Positions 16,079-39,867 of a stretch of DNA of 40,127 nt are shown piece after piece; the first letter of the stretch is position 1, and the number at the start of each line of letters is the position of its first letter. The stretch spans positions 1-40,127 of the forward strand of contig JAKSKU010000022.1 in assembly GCA_024401565.1 (NCBI GenBank), given 5' to 3'. The DNA comes from Paludibacteraceae bacterium. GTDB lineage: Bacteria > Bacteroidota > Bacteroidia > Bacteroidales > Paludibacteraceae. Below the pieces are notes generated by a model. The model worked only from the letters and a program-made list of their open reading frames with translations, was not told the origin of the DNA and did no database searches. Both the position numbers and the translations under genes were made by a program.

Positions 16079-16088
16079 TTTATTTAGG

Positions 16089-16162
16089 CGCTTCTTCTAA
16101 GGCTTGAACTTAGGACCCCATGATTAACAGTCATGTGCTCTAACCAACTGAGCTAAAGAAGC
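16089..16162 (-). tRNA. tRNA-Asn (GTT), third in transcription order
   Basis: The acceptor stem GCTTCTT/AAGAAGC, D-arm GCTCAGTTGGTTAGAGC, anticodon loop CTGTTAA (anticodon GTT) and T-arm CTAAG-TTCAAGC-CTTAG are all intact. The discriminator is G. CCA is not encoded. It is identical to the two upstream copies. Confidence 0.96.
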
Positions 16163-16198
16163 ATTCCGAAACTGTTTTACATCGGTTTCACGATGTTG

Positions 16199-16272
16199 CG
16201 CTTCTTCTAAGGCTTGAACTTAGGACCCCATGATTAACAGTCATGTGCTCTAACCAACTGAGCTAAAGAAGC
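16199..16272 (-). tRNA. tRNA-Asn (GTT), second copy
   Basis: Identical in all 74 nt to the neighbouring copies and part of the same 110-bp tandem unit. The 36-nt spacer is also identical. Confidence 0.96.
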
Positions 16273-16308
16273 ATTCCGAAACTGTTTTACATCGGTTTCA
16301 CGATGTTG

Positions 16309-16382
16309 CGCTTCTTCTAAGGCTTGAACTTAGGACCCCATGATTAACAGTCATGTGCTCTAACCAACTGAGCTAAAGAAGC
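16309..16382 (-). tRNA. tRNA-Asn (GTT), first in transcription order
   Basis: Identical to the other two copies. It lies nearest the minus-strand -7 box at 16422-16429 and so leads the cluster. Confidence 0.96.
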
Positions 16383-16421
16383 ATTTTATGTTGTGCAACC
16401 CTCTTCTTGCGAATTGCGATG

Positions 16422-17477: not shown

Positions 17478-18263
17478 ATGATCAAAGCAGCATTTTTCGA
17501 TATTGACGGAACATTAGTAAGCTTCAATACACATCAGATTCCAGCTTCAACGTTGGACGCACTAAAGCGTCTGCGTGAGGCTGGGGTACGTCTGTTTATC
17601 GCCAGCGGACGCCACATCGCCAGCATGGACAAGGTGACACCTCACGCTGACCTCTTCGACGGCTACGTGATGGTGAACGGTGGACTCTGCACCTATGGCG
17701 ACAAAGTGGTGCACAGCGTCACCATGTCGAAGAAAGATGTGAAACTTTGGCTTGACTATATAAAAGAAGAACCACGCTCCACATGTTTTGTGATGAAAGA
17801 TGAGATTGTGATCAACTTCATCGACGAGCAGATGGAGAAGGTGTTTGAAATACTTGATTTTCCCGTTCCGCCGGCTGTCGATCTCAACAAATATGCAGAT
17901 TCCGACGTCTATCAGTTGATTATTTCATTTACAGCAGAGGAAGATTCAAAAATTTTACCTATCTTTCCAAAGTGTTACGCGCCACGTTGGAGTCCGCTAT
18001 TCAGCGACATTATTCCAAACGGAGTGAACAAGATGGTCGGAATAGAAAAGATGATCGAGCATCTTGGCGTCAAAAGCGATGAGGTAGCTGCGTTTGGCGA
18101 CGGTGGCAACGACATCGAGATGATCGGATCTGTGGGAATGGGAATCGCAATGGGCAATGCCTGTGATGAATTAAAGGCGGTGGCGAAATTCACCACAGAC
18201 GACGTCGACAACGACGGCATAGCGAAAGCCGTCGAAAGATTGTGTAGAGAAGGATTTGTTTAA
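17478..18263 (+). CDS. HAD-superfamily Cof-type sugar-phosphate phosphatase
   Basis: A 261-aa HAD hydrolase of the IIB (Cof/YbiV) type. Motif I is FFDIDGTLVSF with nucleophile Asp8 and Asp10. Motif II lies in LFIASGR. The cap domain covers about 85-180. Motif IV is FGDGGNDIEMI (206-216), which binds Mg. Relatives dephosphorylate sugar phosphates or FMN; the substrate is unknown. The start is set at the ATG at 17478; an upstream TTG at 17472 is in frame but adds only two residues. It lies 9 bp after the PfkB kinase gene. Confidence 0.9.
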   Translation: MIKAAFFDIDGTLVSFNTHQIPASTLDALKRLREAGVRLFIASGRHIASMDKVTPHADLFDGYVMVNGGLCTYGDKVVHSVTMSKKDVKLWLDYIKEEPRSTCFVMKDEIVINFIDEQMEKVFEILDFPVPPAVDLNKYADSDVYQLIISFTAEEDSKILPIFPKCYAPRWSPLFSDIIPNGVNKMVGIEKMIEHLGVKSDEVAAFGDGGNDIEMIGSVGMGIAMGNACDELKAVAKFTTDDVDNDGIAKAVERLCREGFV

Positions 18264-18350
18264 TTAATAATTAAGAGTTAATAATTAATAATTCGGGGGC
18301 GATAATTTAGCATTTCGCATTTCGCATTCCGCATTTATAATTTGAAATTG
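18264..18350. repeat. AT-rich intergenic word repeat
   Basis: Runs of TAATTAATAATTAAGAG and AATAATTAATAATTC are followed by GCATTTCGCATTTCGCATTC. This is the same A/T-rich word family found in several other gaps of the window. Confidence 0.55.
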
Positions 18351-33264: not shown

Positions 33265-34359
33265 CTACATATCCTCCGAGGACCTGAATATCACTTTGTT
33301 TTTTGATTGGAACGACGTGAGCTGGTTGCCGGACATCTCCTGTAGAGCCATCTTGGTGTACTGCTTGTCGTCGAGCGATTTCAACACAAACTCTATAGTC
33401 AGGTTTTTGAATGTCATTCCTGTGCTGCGGGCCTGGATGAAATCTCTGAAATACTGTTGGTCGTTTTCTCCAAGTGAGTGGCCGAAAAACGTCACTTTAT
33501 CGCCGTCGCCCAACGTCAGCAACGAGTCGATGATGGCTGGAGGATTGAAATTGTCGTCCATCGCTTTCTGGAGAAACTTATAGGAATTGTCGGTCTCGTT
33601 ATACTCCTTTGTACCGATCACAATCGTGTCTTCCTTCAGATTTCCGTGCACATATTGCACATTGGCTTTTTCTGGCCACGGAACGAAGGTATAATTGAAT
33701 GTAAACACCTCCACTGTGTCGTAATTGTCCATGTCGAAAATGGCGTTAAGGCGACGTCGCAATTCATCATCATTCGCATGAGAAAACGGCTGGTCGAGAA
33801 GGTAGCCGCGCAGACCATCCTTGATTTTATAGAAGGCTGCCTTGTCTCTTATCTCTTTAGTCTCGGCGTAGACAGGATCCTTGATGTAATAGTACTTTAG
33901 ATCGTCGGTCTGGATAAGCAACCCTTTCTCCACCATCTTCATCAAAAACTCCCGCGTCTTCTTGGCGAAGATCTCGCGCTTCTCAATTTCAGGATTGTTA
34001 AATAAGACGTAGATATCGCCATCATTGTTGGAAGGCACGTAGAGAAAATTGCATATTTCCTCAGCGCTTACCGAGCAGTTACGCCCCTTAATATAAGCAA
34101 GAATCTTATGCTCCTCAGACGAGATCGGATCCTGGATATCCTCGTTGATTTGGGCATAATTGTAAAGCTCGGTCTCAAAGTCGAACCATTTCACCTCGCT
34201 CAATCCCCTCGTCGGCTGCCACTGGTTGAGATAGTCGATCAAAGGTGCAGGATAGTCCTTAGGGCAATAGATATCGCTCTTATAGAAATCGCTGTACTTG
34301 GTTCTTCTGCCAAGAAACAGATCGAATCCGTTACCTATGATAATGACGTGGCGAGGCAT
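33265..34359 (-). CDS. AbiH-type abortive-infection protein
   Basis: A 364-aa protein whose N-terminus, MPRHVIIIGNGFDLFLGRRT, followed by KYSDF, is the hallmark of the AbiH family, described in lactococci as phage abortive infection proteins and now found widely. The GNGFD motif (9-13) and the C-terminal FFGHSLGENDQQYFRDF are both conserved in the family; the mechanism is not settled. The ATG at 34359 is preferred over an upstream in-frame TTG because family members begin right at this motif. A 52-aa ORF ends 28 bp upstream, probably in one transcript. It lies in a repeat-rich block with an AAA ATPase between housekeeping genes rplY and uvrA, which suggests an acquired defence locus (inference). 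Confidence 0.85.
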   Translation of the reverse strand: MPRHVIIIGNGFDLFLGRRTKYSDFYKSDIYCPKDYPAPLIDYLNQWQPTRGLSEVKWFDFETELYNYAQINEDIQDPISSEEHKILAYIKGRNCSVSAEEICNFLYVPSNNDGDIYVLFNNPEIEKREIFAKKTREFLMKMVEKGLLIQTDDLKYYYIKDPVYAETKEIRDKAAFYKIKDGLRGYLLDQPFSHANDDELRRRLNAIFDMDNYDTVEVFTFNYTFVPWPEKANVQYVHGNLKEDTIVIGTKEYNETDNSYKFLQKAMDDNFNPPAIIDSLLTLGDGDKVTFFGHSLGENDQQYFRDFIQARSTGMTFKNLTIEFVLKSLDDKQYTKMALQEMSGNQLTSFQSKNKVIFRSSEDM

Positions 34360-34387
34360 GGGTTTTATGTAAAGACGCAAGGACGTT

Positions 34388-34794: not shown

Positions 34795-35922
34795 TTAATC
34801 AATTCCAAGGAATTTTTCGAAATTATCTCTGTGTATGATTTCAAATGTGGAGTTGGAATAAGCGTTAGCGAATGATGGCGGGAATGAGGCTTTTGCAGTT
34901 GGATTCCACTTAAATTCATAGCAATGCAAATTGCCGTCATACTCTTCTAAATAGTCGATCTCTGTTTGATCTTTAGTTCTCCAAAAGTACTTGTTGGCAT
35001 ACGAGTTTGTATAATCAGTGAATTTGATTCTTTCAGAAATAAGAAAGTTTTCCCATAGAGCTCCTATATCATTCCTATTCTCTATTGAAGCGTAATTGGA
35101 GATCAAAGCGTTTCTCACTCCATTGTCGTAGAAGTAGATCTTTTTGGATGTCTTAAGTTCGTTTCTTAGATTACGACTGAATGAGTTTATCCTGAAAATG
35201 ATATAACACTGCTCTAAAAGATTAATATACGACTCTACAGTTTTTGAATCCAATCCTAACAAATTCGCTAATTCATTGTATGACACTTGTGAACCGACTT
35301 GAAATGCAAGTGCTTGAAGTAATTTCACTAATTTGTCAGATTTCTTGATTTGCGACATTGCCAGAATGTCTTTATACAGATAACTATCTGTTAGTTGCTT
35401 CAATAAATCTATTTCATTTCCTTCATTTGTGACAATTTCGGGATAATATCCGTAAACAAGTCGTTGAGGTAATAAACGAAGCTCTTTGATTAATCCGTGA
35501 TGATCAACCATTTCTTTAAATGATATTGGGTACATTTTTATTTCCCACTTTCTTCCTGTTAAAGGCTCGTTTATTTTGTTTGAGATATCCAAAGAAGAAC
35601 TGCCTGTGGCTATGATTTGGACGTCGTTTAAATTGTCTGTAATCAATTTAAGTTTCAAACCTATGTTTTCTATTCTTTGGGCTTCATCAATTACTATAAT
35701 TTTTTTATTGCCAATTATAGAACGCCATCTGTCGGAAGAAATATTAGAGAGCATAGATTGAACATCAAATTCGTCTCCATTAAGTCTAAGTATTGAAGTT
35801 TCGTCCTTGAACATCTCATTTAATAAAGTCGTTTTCCCTATTTGTCGACACCCAATTAGAATTATGGCTTTACCTTTTCCGGTGAGAACATCGATTTTGT
35901 TTTTAAGTATTCTTTGTATCAT
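34795..35922 (-). CDS. AAA family ATPase with DUF4143-type C-terminus
   Basis: A 375-aa protein. The Walker A motif is GCRQIGKTT (24-32) and Walker B is IIVIDEAQRI, followed by a sensor-like TGSSSLDIS. Beyond about 190 comes a winged-helix region (VSYNELANLLGLDSKTVESYINLLEQCYIIF) and then the DUF4143 nuclease-like region (YFYDNGVRNALI, GALWENFLISERIK, WRTKDQTEIDYLEE). The last element, with E-x-D and a later E-F-K-W, resembles a PD-(D/E)xK fold. The role of the family is unknown; many copies per Bacteroidales genome are usual. The start is the ATG at 35922, 26 nt after a perfect promoter; the longer frame reads through 32-bp repeats. The gene is visibly more AT-rich than uvrA, a possible sign of transfer. 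Confidence 0.9.
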   Translation of the reverse strand: MIQRILKNKIDVLTGKGKAIILIGCRQIGKTTLLNEMFKDETSILRLNGDEFDVQSMLSNISSDRWRSIIGNKKIIVIDEAQRIENIGLKLKLITDNLNDVQIIATGSSSLDISNKINEPLTGRKWEIKMYPISFKEMVDHHGLIKELRLLPQRLVYGYYPEIVTNEGNEIDLLKQLTDSYLYKDILAMSQIKKSDKLVKLLQALAFQVGSQVSYNELANLLGLDSKTVESYINLLEQCYIIFRINSFSRNLRNELKTSKKIYFYDNGVRNALISNYASIENRNDIGALWENFLISERIKFTDYTNSYANKYFWRTKDQTEIDYLEEYDGNLHCYEFKWNPTAKASFPPSFANAYSNSTFEIIHRDNFEKFLGID

Positions 35923-35948: not shown

Positions 35949-35979
35949 CAAAAGTATATATAAAATAAGAATTGACAAA
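35949..35979 (-). promoter_or_regulatory. Promoter of the AAA ATPase gene
   Basis: On the minus strand TTTG (35976-35979), a 19-bp spacer and TACTTTTG (35949-35956) match the consensus exactly. The -33 box is 3 bp from the first 32-bp repeat. Confidence 0.8.
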
Positions 35980-35982
35980 ATT

Positions 35983-36110
35983 GATTCCGAAAATATCGCA
36001 ACTTTTTTGGATTTGATTCCGAAAATATCGCAACTTTTTTGGATTTGATTCCGAAAATATCGCAACTTTTTTGGATTTAATTCCGAAAATATCGCAACTT
36101 TTTTGGATTT
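35983..36110. repeat. Four tandem 32-bp repeats, array 1
   Basis: Units start at 35983, 36015, 36047 and 36079. Each reads GATTCCGAAAATATCGCAAC followed by TTTTTTGGATTT, with a single change in the last unit (AATTCCG). There are no spacers. The array lies just upstream of the ATPase promoter, so it could be a multi-site operator. Confidence 0.95.
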
Positions 36111-36130
36111 ACTATTCAATACCAATAAAA

Positions 36131-36158
36131 TAGAGACGCCGCACGCGACGTCTCTACG
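36131..36158. repeat. GAGACG palindrome, fifth copy
   Basis: TAGAGACG and CGTCTCTA arms flank an interior of GC-rich sequence (CCGCACGCGA). It belongs to the same family as the cluster at 27658-27800 and may double as a terminator for uvrA. Confidence 0.7.
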
Positions 36159-36233
36159 AATGTGTCCCATCGTTGGAATCCTCCCAAGATGGTATGTACC
36201 GACAATTACGAATTATGAATTACGCATTACGAA

Positions 36234-39047
36234 TTAAAAGATCAGTCCATCGTTGGCAAACTTTGCTTTCAAGCATTTTGCTGTGAATGATTCTTTATTC
36301 ATGACAAGCTCCTCTGGTGTGCCGGCAAACACAAGTTCACCTCCCTTGTCTCCTCCGTCCGGACCGATATCTATGACGTGGTCCGCACATTTGATCACAT
36401 CCATGTTATGCTCAATGATGACGACGGTGTGTCCCTTCTCAATCAAAGCGTTAAAAGCTTTAAGCAGTGTCTTGATGTCGTGGAAGTGGAGTCCTGTTGT
36501 CGGCTCGTCGAAGATGAAGATTGTTGGTTGTGTCTTCTCTTCTGCCAAGATTGCAGCAAGCTTCACGCGCTGGCTCTCTCCTCCTGATAGTGTGGATGAG
36601 GCTTGACCAAGTTTGATATAGCCCAAACCGACGTCTTGCAACGATTTCAATCTCTTGACAATCTTCTTCTCCGTCGACTCCATCTTCTCCGAGAAGAATT
36701 CCACTGCCTGGTTGATGGTCATCTCAAGCACGTCGTAGATGTTCTTGCCACGGTAGCGAACCTCCAAAATATCCTGCTTGAAACGCATTCCTTTACAGCT
36801 CTCGCATGGCAAAACCAAGTCGGCCATAAACTGCATCTCGATGGTTGTTGTTCCCTCTCCCTGACATTCGTCGCATCGTCCGCCTTCTGTGTTGAATGAG
36901 AAGTGTGCACTGCGATAGCCCATCTGTTTTGATAACTGCTGGTCGGCGTATAGTTTACGGATCTCGTCGTAAGCTTTGACGTATGTCACTGGATTTGAAC
37001 GAGATGATTTTCCAATTGGATTCTGGTCTACAAAGTTGACATTCTTCACCAAATCTGTGGCTCCGGAAAGTGATGAGTACAAACCTGGTTTCTCTTCCGA
37101 CTCGTCCAACTCTCTCTTCAATGCAAGGTAGAAAATGTCTCTTACCAATGATGATTTTCCTGAACCACTCGGACCAGTGACGACGGTCATGACGTTGAGT
37201 GGAAATTTCACGTCGAAGCCTTTCAAGTTGTGCTGCAACGCTCCTTTGATCTCAATATAATTGTTCCAAGGTCGACGGTACTGCGGCACGGCTATCTTCT
37301 CTGTTCCGTTGAGATAATCGATAGTGTAGGAGTGCAGTTCTGCGTTCTGCTTTGCCTTTTTGGCATCCTCAGGCGATCCCTCGAACACCACTTTACCACC
37401 GTTGCGTCCTGATTCCGGACCGATGTCGATGATATAGTCGGCAGCACGCATGATCTCTTCGTCGTGCTCTACCACAACCACTGTGTTTCCTAATTTCTGC
37501 AAACTACGTAGCACGGATACCAAGCGTTCAGTATCGCGGCTGTGCAGACCAATACTTGGCTCGTCGAGGATGTATAATGAACCGACAAGACTTGATCCTA
37601 ACGATGTCACAAGGTTGATACGTTGGCTCTCTCCACCCGAAAGTGAGTTGGACAGACGATTCAATGTCAAATAGCCGAGTCCCACGTCGACAAGGAAATT
37701 CAATCGGTTCTTGATTTCGATAAGCAGACGTTTTGCTACCAACTCCTCATGCTCGGTAAGCTGGATATTGTCGAAGAACGGTTTCAATTCCGACACTGGC
37801 ATATCCACCAATTCTGTGATGCTCTTTCCTGCCACCTTCACCCATGAGGCGTTCTCCTTCAAACGAGTGCCACCACACTTAGGGCAGATTGTCTTGCCAC
37901 GATAGCGTGCAAGCATCACACGGTATTGAATCTTATATTGCTGGCTCTCAACGAATTTGAAGAACTCGTCGATTCCATGAGTAAGCTGTGTGCCATGCCA
38001 TAATTTCTTCTTCTCTTCAGCTGTAAGTTGGAAATATGGCTTGTGGATAGGGAATTTGATTGCCTCCGCGTGGAAGATAAAATCCTGAAGCCATTCGCCC
38101 ATCTTCTCTCCACGCCAGCATATCACTGCTCCCTGATAAACAGACAAGGTCTTGTCTGGCACTACCAAGTCTTCGTCTATTCCGACGACGCGACCGAATC
38201 CTTCGCAGACAGGGCATGCTCCGTAAGGGGAGTTGAAACTGAACATCAACTCAGTTGGCTCGTCGAAAGTGATTCCGTCAGCCTCGAATTTAGTGCTGAA
38301 CTGCTTCAGTGATTCCCCGTCTGGAGTATAAACCAAAATTTGGCAAGAAGAACCGTCGCCCTGCCATAAAGCAGTCTGAACGGAATCAGAGACACGGTTT
38401 TTTGTTTCATTGTCGTGACGCACCACATAACGGTCCACCACAATATATGCGACCTTGCATGACTTTGCCATATCTGCGGTGAAATCGGTGATCTTCGTCA
38501 CCGCACCGTCGATAAGCAGACGTGCAAAACCCTCTAATTTAGCTTTCTCCACCGTCTCCTCAAGATTTTCTTTTGGAAGAGACGACAAGATCATACCTTT
38601 TGTACCGTCTTCAAAAGAGAGGATATAATCCACGATGTCCGACACCTGATGACGCTTCACCTCCTCGCCTGAGATAGGAGAGAAAGTTCTGCCGACACGG
38701 GCGAACAACAGTTTGATATATTCGTAGATTTCAGTAGAAGTGCCGACGGTAGAGCGTGGATTTCGAGTGCTTACCTTCTGCTCGATAGCGATAGCTGGAG
38801 GAAGGCCCTTGATATAGTCAACCTCAGGTTTGCTCATTCTGCCCAAGAACTGGCGGGCATACGACGAAAGACTCTCCACATAACGGCGCTGACCTTCAGC
38901 GTAGAGAGTGTCGAAAGCGAGTGACGACTTGCCCGAACCAGAAAGGCCGGTGATCACCACCAGTTTATTGCGAGGTATTTTGATATCTATGTCCTTAAGG
39001 TTGTGCACTTTAGCACCCTTAATGGATATGAATCCACTGTCTGCCAT
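36234..39047 (-). CDS. uvrA: Excinuclease ABC subunit A
   Basis: A 937-aa DNA-damage recognition ATPase of nucleotide excision repair that loads UvrB. The first Walker A is GLSGSGKSS (34-42) and the second GPSGSGKSS. Both ABC signatures, LSGGESQR, are present. The zinc-binding cysteines are at [24 protein letters not shown] and CESCKGMR. The start is the ATG at 39047 ([20 protein letters not shown]), which fits the family; the longer open frame runs upstream through a repeat array and is not coding. Length is normal. A -7 box is at 39083-39090. Confidence 0.98.
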
Positions 39048-39082
39048 AACTAAACTATACTTTGAAAGTGTAAAGGTACAAA

Positions 39083-39090
39083 CAAATTTA
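39083..39090 (-). promoter_or_regulatory. -7 box of uvrA
   Basis: On the minus strand the sequence is TAAATTTG, 35 nt before the ATG. No TTTG was seen at the usual -33 distance. The second 32-bp repeat array begins about 40 bp further upstream. Confidence 0.45.
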
Positions 39091-39131
39091 CTGACTTTGA
39101 CTATAATGAAGCTGGATTTTAGGAAGGGAGT

Positions 39132-39255
39132 GTTTAGATTTTGGCGTAAAATTGAAAGTGGGAGTTTTAAAAATGGCGTAAATTTAAAACCCAAAGTTTA
39201 GATTTTGGCGTAAAATTGAAAGCGAGAGTTTTAAAAATGGCGTAAATTTAAAACT
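39132..39255. repeat. Four 32-bp units, array 2 (two alternating types)
   Basis: The core TGGCGTAAA occurs at 39142, 39174, 39206 and 39238, exactly 32 bp apart. Odd units read GTTTAGATTTTGGCGTAAAA, and even units read GTTTTAAAAATGGCGTAAAT, so the larger period is 64 bp. The array begins right after the histidine phosphatase stop codon and lies upstream of uvrA. Confidence 0.9.
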
Positions 39256-39867
39256 CTACACCAGCCCGTTAAGATGCTCTGTGTCGTTCCACATCGCTAT
39301 GCTCCAGACTCCAGCCTCACGACGGATGTCGCAAAGGCAAGTGCTTTGTGGCTTAGGTTGGTTGGATGCGTCCTTCATATCCCAACGTTTCAAATAGACA
39401 TAAAGAGAACGTAGCACCACGCCGTGAGTGACGATTAGAACGGTTTGGTTGGGATGTCTGTCTGCAATCTCGTTGATGGCTTTGGAAGCACGACGCATCA
39501 CGTCGCCCACAGCCTCACGCTCATCAGAATTAGAAGTGATATCCCAGAAATGCTCCATGGCATCCGGGTAGAGACGGTAGCCTTCCTCGAAATTCAACCC
39601 CTCAAGTTTGCCAAGAGAGATTTCTTTCAATTCGTCGACGGGAATAATCTCGAATCCACGATTGCCAACCACCAGTTTGGCGGTGTCCAGTGCACGTTGC
39701 AGGGAACTGCTGTAGACGGCGTCGATATGTATGCCAGCCAGACGCTCACCAAGTTTGATGGCCTGCTGTTCACCCATCGGAGTCAGGTTGGAATTGTTTT
39801 GACCTTGGAATCTGTGAGCCACATTCCATTCAGTCTGGCCATGACGGCAAAGAAGAAGACGAACCAT
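39256..39867 (-). CDS. Histidine phosphatase family protein (phosphoglycerate mutase-like)
   Basis: A 203-aa phosphatase of branch 1. The N-terminal LLCRHGQTEWN holds the phospho-acceptor His9 in the RHG motif, and the second catalytic His148 lies in LIVTHGVVLRS. YSSSLQRALDTA and the acidic ELKEISLGKLEG are also conserved. Homologues act as alpha-ribazole phosphatases, as general sugar phosphatases or as cofactor-dependent mutases; the substrate cannot be set here. The stop codon abuts repeat array 2. The rpmF terminator lies upstream, so it has its own transcript. Confidence 0.9.
   Translation of the reverse strand: MVRLLLCRHGQTEWNVAHRFQGQNNSNLTPMGEQQAIKLGERLAGIHIDAVYSSSLQRALDTAKLVVGNRGFEIIPVDELKEISLGKLEGLNFEEGYRLYPDAMEHFWDITSNSDEREAVGDVMRRASKAINEIADRHPNQTVLIVTHGVVLRSLYVYLKRWDMKDASNQPKPQSTCLCDIRREAGVWSIAMWNDTEHLNGLV

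Follow-up and report, generated by a model that had tools for sequence, protein, structure and literature searches.

The two tandem arrays in the window (the whole stretch of 40,127 nucleotides that was analysed) are probably private operators, each of which would be bound by its own AAA_14-DUF4143 ATPase-nuclease of the PDC-S01 type and would autoregulate the gene of that ATPase. This reading is drawn from sequence, in which arrays are associated with ATPase genes, the unit spacing is fixed, the units contain a dyad, the arrays are phased with the promoter, an array base covaries with a protein residue, and the ATPase ATP2 is absent beside array 2 and survives as a remnant in a close relative. 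Array 1 would serve the intact ATPase gene P0003, and array 2 would have served the deleted ATP2. The features of the region are as follows.

33265..34380, minus strand: AbiH-family abortive-infection gene, adjoining P0003 (Pfam)
34795..35922, minus strand: P0003, a 375-aa AAA_14 + DUF4143 ATPase (Pfam, PADLOC, alignment)
35949..35956, minus strand: putative Bacteroidota -7 promoter box of P0003, TACTTTTG, between array 1 and the start codon
35981..36110, minus strand: array 1, the proposed P0003 operator array (TRF, self-offset, unit alignment)
36234..39047, minus strand: uvrA, a bystander between arrays 1 and 2 (locus comparison)
39041..39108, minus strand: flank at the join where ATP2 is missing, with 93% homology to the genome G085
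39132..39255, minus strand: array 2, with four TTTACGCC cores, the proposed orphan array of the missing ATP2
39256..39867, minus strand: histidine phosphatase (HisPhos) gene (Pfam, locus comparison)

The two arrays, P0003 and the missing ATP2

Array 1 consists of about four 32-bp dyad units, and its minus-strand unit is cgatattttcGGAATCAAATCCaaaaaagttg. TRF determined a period of 32 bp with 4.1 copies, 98% matches and a score of 253, and self-alignment at offset 32 scores 96.8, whereas the highest of 99 dinucleotide-shuffled versions reaches 12.4. The dyad of array 1 on its own is not above its shuffle null (p = 0.28). In array 2 the TTTACGCC core occurs four times at a step of exactly 32 bp; TRF, which places the array at 39132-39254, scores a 64-bp unit in 1.9 copies (96%) above a 32-bp unit in 3.5 copies (70%), and array 2 is therefore better called two 64-bp units, each made of two diverged 32-bp halves. 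The sequence-only reading had described both arrays as four contiguous 32-bp units. TRF, the self-offset shuffles and the core spacing confirm that both arrays are real, and the description is correct for array 1 and for the 32-bp core spacing of array 2. Each array matches the host genome once (2.18-Mb assembly, 78% complete), and a dispersed repeat family of the REP/RAYT type was rejected on this basis.

The start codon of P0003 (35922, minus strand) is located 58 bp past the end of array 1. The protein scores 103.9 bits against Pfam AAA_14 (cut-off 27) and 141.1 bits against DUF4143 (cut-off 28.1). It is by profile a member of PADLOC PDC-S01 (phage defence candidate, single gene 01; AAA_14 + DUF4143), scoring 551.7 bits with PDLC04789, and the PDC-S01 profiles match all of the ATPases tested, P0003 and six others. 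P0003 features a putative wHTH, with an HTH_36 match only below the Pfam cut-off, and a PD-(D/E)XK-like C-terminus, a motif assigned by eye, in which E291, E321, D323, E336 and K338 are invariant among 13 aligned members. Because these residues are invariant, a P0003-type protein may also cut nucleic acid. A PDB search with the P0003 sequence alone gave no match, and a search with the clade alignment gave weak matches only, mostly over the ATP-binding region. The archaeal Walker-type ATPase PDB 2qen, which we take to belong to the MNS clade, is a weak, non-significant profile match of this kind (E 0.15, over the ATP-binding region), and we know of no array for archaeal Walker-type ATPases such as this one.

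Array 1 DNA matches 19 of 300 family genomes, host included. TRF finds the 32-bp period in 16 of 27 array-1 loci, a count that includes the host's locus and counts two places twice. A P0003 homologue with 49-63% identity is present in 9 of the 26 non-host loci (one place counted twice) and a weaker homologue in 3 of the 26, where short flanks were searched; no P0003 homologue was found within the short flanks of the remaining non-host loci. Of P0003, the genome G117 retains just a C-terminal remnant that contains stops. Additionally, array-1-type arrays precede AbiH, with no P0003-type ATPase, in two genomes of the same genus, G085 (L040:12027-12106) and G019 (L057, upstream of 7332), which is a possible operator capture by AbiH. 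Two other kinds of repeat occur in the window: diverged 7-bp units (AATTACG, TAATTAA) run at 36204-36236, between uvrA and array 1, and at 18261-18293, and three tRNA-Asn (GTT) genes at 16088-16385 form a 110-bp tandem array with 2.7 copies and 100% matches.

Array 2 DNA matches 10 of 300 family genomes, host included. In 4 of 9 larger loci (L040, L042-L049) a 416-aa DUF4143 ATPase, ATP2, lies behind the array and is 27-28% identical to P0003. The gene order in G085, of the same genus, is HisPhos - array - ATP2 - uvrA. An ATPase is absent between array 2 and uvrA in the window, and the flank at 39041..39108 matches G085 sequence that begins 24 bp past the ATP2 stop codon. No match to ATP2 at E<=1e-100 was found elsewhere in the host genome, with 5 of 28 candidates scored. 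G117, which has 96-97% nucleotide identity to the window over uvrA and HisPhos, retains ATP2 residues 362-415 of 416; these 54 C-terminal residues abut the array and are 96% identical to those of G085. In G019, G048 and G110, HisPhos immediately precedes uvrA and both the array and the ATPase are absent; the array-2 cores are also not found at the HisPhos-uvrA site in G068 and G099.

The locus comparison therefore resolves this site into three states, which are empty, full and array left behind, and the decay series reveals that arrays outlast gene loss there. Array 2 is best explained as the persisting array of a second PDC-S01 member, ATP2, that appears to have been deleted since. The sequence-only reading had placed both arrays upstream of a minus-strand gene, and this stands, except that the proper gene of array 2 would be the missing ATPase and not uvrA. 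As a partner of either array uvrA was rejected, since it has no upstream array in G019, G048 and G110 and an ATPase intervenes in G085. In L256 and L257 (G099 and G036), similar two- or three-unit arrays flank ATP2 on both sides, and paired arrays of this kind could recombine and delete the gene.

Arrays upstream of related ATPase genes

The presence of an array was scored as the best ungapped self-alignment at offsets 18-90 within 300 bp upstream of a gene, compared with dinucleotide shuffles. When 13 aligned P0003-clade proteins were used to scan 84,980 species genomes, at least 589 relatives were confirmed, and the best-scoring 80 of these, a non-random sample, were used as P0003-clade loci. 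Among these best 80 of at least 589, all in named genomes, the best upstream offset is 32 in 58 loci, and the array is significant in 54, with 48 of the 54 at offset 32. ATP2 relatives have a significant upstream array in 23 of 24 testable cases (22 at 32 and one at 64), and GCGTAA or TTACGC is found in the 300 bp upstream of 23 of the 24. The fetched host loci contain 27 distinct ATPase ORFs of >=200 aa, two of which are pieces of an apparently split gene, and 22 of the 25 testable ORFs have a significant upstream array. One genome carries some twenty ATPase paralogues whose unit sequences differ. In G085 the array is significant at 18 of 19 ATPases, where one divergent pair shares one array that is counted twice; this pair (L116, on C17) features a single 33-bp array between two divergently transcribed ATPases, common to both. 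The recurrence before DUF4143-type ATPases that the sequence-only reading had named as a check is thereby observed in the P0003 clade, among the ATP2 relatives, in the host and in G085.

The 40 significant arrays of the host and G085 have an offset of 32 or 33 in 27 cases, and the others are 23, 41, 64-66, 72, 74 and 83. A uniform unit length, on which the sequence-only reading had staked its class of arrays, is seen within the P0003 and ATP2 clades, but the length differs between clades.

Controls consisted of 184 non-ATPase neighbour genes from 131 loci fetched by ATPase. None of these is significant at 32, 2 of the 184 have 32 as the best offset, and 23 reach p<=0.01 at scattered offsets, two of them at 33, so the offset test is liberal. 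This set replaced an earlier one (20 of 142 significant), which was dropped because five of its positives were ATPase-like (three by match, two by eye) and many of its loci had been fetched for arrays. In AT-rich intergenic DNA, repeats such as those that precede control genes at other offsets could arise by chance or by neutral tandem duplication; however, a best offset of exactly 32 in 58 of the best 80 relatives versus 2 of 184 controls, together with the covariation between residue and base described below, leaves this explanation with a probability close to nil.

The top PF13635 matches across the phylum are mostly without arrays, 4 of 30 being significant, with offsets 36, 22, 32 and 76; in the distant genome G411 the count is 5 of 9. 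Some DUF4143 clades are therefore without arrays, the host L091 type among them. Two relatives were found on viral contigs, neither with a significant array.

Several single loci were also recorded. In L093 (host C3:49500-55500), three successive ATPase genes have upstream offsets of 32, 23 and then 63, the last measured on a short stretch of 141 bp. In L196 a contig labelled Lokiarchaeota, which may be mis-binned bacterial DNA, carries a P0003-type ATPase that has a 32-bp array. At L092:4601-4684 (host C13) a 33-bp array is located before a non-ATPase gene, by eye a probable helicase, that adjoins an ATPase, and it is possibly a further orphan array.

Unit anatomy, promoter register and base-residue covariation

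The anatomy of the unit was determined from 61 P0003-clade arrays chosen for offset 32, and the approximate unit is taacttttttGGAATCAAATCCaaaaaagtta. In 48 of the 61 a distance of 15.5-16 bp separates the two best dyad centres, and the dyad exceeds its own shuffle null in 27 of the 61, array 1 of the window not being among them. From the spacing of the dyad centres, the half-site seems to flip its orientation with each 16-bp step and so to return to the same orientation after 32 bp.

The consensus of the Bacteroidota -7 box is TAnnTTTG. Of the 61 P0003-clade loci, 48 have this motif within their last 70 bp, versus 4.8 expected, and in 34 of the 61 a box starts no earlier than 3 bp before the array end. 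Phases of 18-20 on the 32-bp period account for 28 of these 34 boxes (Rayleigh test, p about 3e-9), and five of the six off-phase boxes (8, 9, 29, 30 and 31) are about one or two helical turns off. The boxes also cluster at a 10.5-bp period (p about 1e-11), a result that depends on the 32-bp phase result. The P0003 box of the window starts 34 bp upstream of the ATG and is one of these five, at phase 30 of 32, so that it is an exception to a fixed array-promoter register that holds for the clade. Among the 13 loci of ATP2 relatives with a plus-strand last core, the box follows that core at exactly 32 bp in 8; in the other five it is at 54-55 bp in four and there is no box in one. About 20 bp separate the -7 box from the last dyad centre upstream of it, which falls on the spacer and the -33 region.

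The register bears on two other roles for the arrays. In the first, the ATPase or another factor would turn the promoter on from the array, which is consistent with arrays that lie just upstream of the promoter box and in phase with it; however, the position of the last dyad centre over the spacer and -33 region would fit occlusion better, and activation is accordingly improbable. In the second, the array would be less an operator than a substrate on which the ATPase-nuclease works: the protein would assemble there as a poised sensor, or the array would mark the home site of the module in a selfish or defensive cycle, and the overlap with the promoter would be secondary. An AAA domain and the invariant D323, E336 and K338 in 13 members exceed the needs of a plain repressor, arrays occur on both sides of the ATP2 genes in L256 and L257, and arrays persist after gene loss. 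Against this, arrays are mostly upstream (10 of 81 downstream regions of ATPases are significant, two at offset 32) and are in register with the promoter box, and a substrate role is considered unlikely.

Covariation between the unit and the ATPase was determined in a subset of the same arrays. The template cut-off removed 7 of the 61 and left 54; 5 more were set aside because their two half-sites did not share one base, which left 49. Protein column 227 is the start of the putative recognition helix (GLDS-K-TVEKY), and the half-site base follows its residue. G occurs with Lys in 37 of 37 arrays, C with Glu (3) or Gln (4) in 7 of 7, T with Asn (3) or Ile (1) in 4 of 4, and A with Gln in 1 of 1. 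Column 227 has a z of 19.3 and the next-best column 8.7; this outlier is informative because all columns share one phylogeny. Lys-G and Glu/Gln-C contact preferences are known, and the pattern at residue 227 agrees with them.

A hold-out scan covered 40 loci, many with weak or non-significant arrays and seven with other residues, and it is partly dependent because a template with fixed neighbours was used. Of the 14 Lys loci, 11 have G, two have G in a mixture and one has C. The other classes are noisy: of 10 Glu loci, three have C, three more have C in a mixture, one has G, one has A/T and two gave no base; of 6 Gln loci, three have C, one is mixed, one has A and one gave no base; and of 3 Asn loci, one has T and two have T in a mixture. 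On a tree built without the helix columns, residue class requires 13 changes and the base 14. In a strict phylogenetic pair test nearly all pairs are in the expected direction, with just 1-2 supported pairs per contrast, too few for significance. The sequence-only reading had named covariation of unit sequence with the ATPase as a check, and column 227 upholds this, more noisily in the hold-out. Its broader suggestion, that different DNA-binding proteins read modular operator arrays of one class, gains support from recurrence and covariation together. Its alternative, a replication or recombination array, gained no support from any observation made here.

Dyad units could also fold as RNA, and a transcribed array might then form hairpins or an attenuator. 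However, in the 34 of 61 loci with the box at or beyond the array 3' end the array would not be transcribed from that box, the covarying partner is a residue of a putative DNA-binding helix, and no Rfam match was found at the arrays, all of which make an RNA role very improbable.

Proposed control and relation to known systems

In the private-operator reading, the winged helix of each ATPase would read a 16-bp half-site that alternates in orientation, and same-way half-sites would recur every 32 bp, about three helical turns. ATPase oligomers would bind the array physically and occupy it cooperatively, up to the promoter with its -7 box in register, and the filled array would keep transcription of the ATPase gene low. 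Repression is likelier than activation because the last dyad centre covers the spacer and the -33 region, and release of the array would occur during phage infection.

PDC-S01 is described in PMC12988326 as an ATPase fused to a PD-(D/E)XK domain and as the fourth most common defence across prokaryotes, with 9,986 archaeal and 29,494 bacterial cases; experiments are pending for most PDCs (PMC12988326). PMC13356809 reports PDC-S01 as the most frequent individual locus in rumen genomes. The term 'tandem repeat' is absent from the main text of PMC12988326, and the three occurrences of 'repeat' in PMC13356809 are all within CRISPR's name. The literature searched, with most subscription papers and bioRxiv preprints outside its reach, holds no report of arrays at PDC-S01 genes and, in the portions available, none of what PDC-S01 members recognise. 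To PDC-S01 as described, the present analysis adds the upstream array, its phasing with the promoter and the code at residue 227.

The proposed arrangement has likenesses to several known systems. Lambda CI and plasmid iteron repressors are autorepressors with tandem cooperative operators. As in these, repeated and helically phased sites are here proposed to overlap the promoter of the regulator itself; however, the regulator is a predicted AAA ATPase-nuclease with some twenty paralogues in one genome and differing units. CRISPR arrays likewise feature short direct repeats near a candidate defence gene. A CRISPR array was rejected, since the units are contiguous and without spacers, and unlike CRISPR repeats those at PDC-S01 genes abut a promoter. 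Phased cooperative operators and autoregulation are known, and what appears to be new is their use, through a readable code and private sites, by a large paralogous family of ATPase-nucleases.

A bolder proposal, which is conceivable but doubtful, is that a private array and its ATPase-nuclease form a widespread modular DNA-addressed sentinel. Paralogues would polymerise on their own arrays by way of a residue-to-base code, and the array would be both address and trigger, beyond an operator. Orphan arrays, such as array 2 and those before AbiH in G019 and G085, may then put other genes under control of the family in trans.

The private-operator reading would explain how one architecture occurs in arrays that are unrelated in sequence. 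The arrays left behind allow lost ATPase genes to be recognised. Additionally, a private site at constant spacing and in register with the promoter, together with a one-residue code, would provide an immediate and cheap assay of PDC-S01 binding and control.
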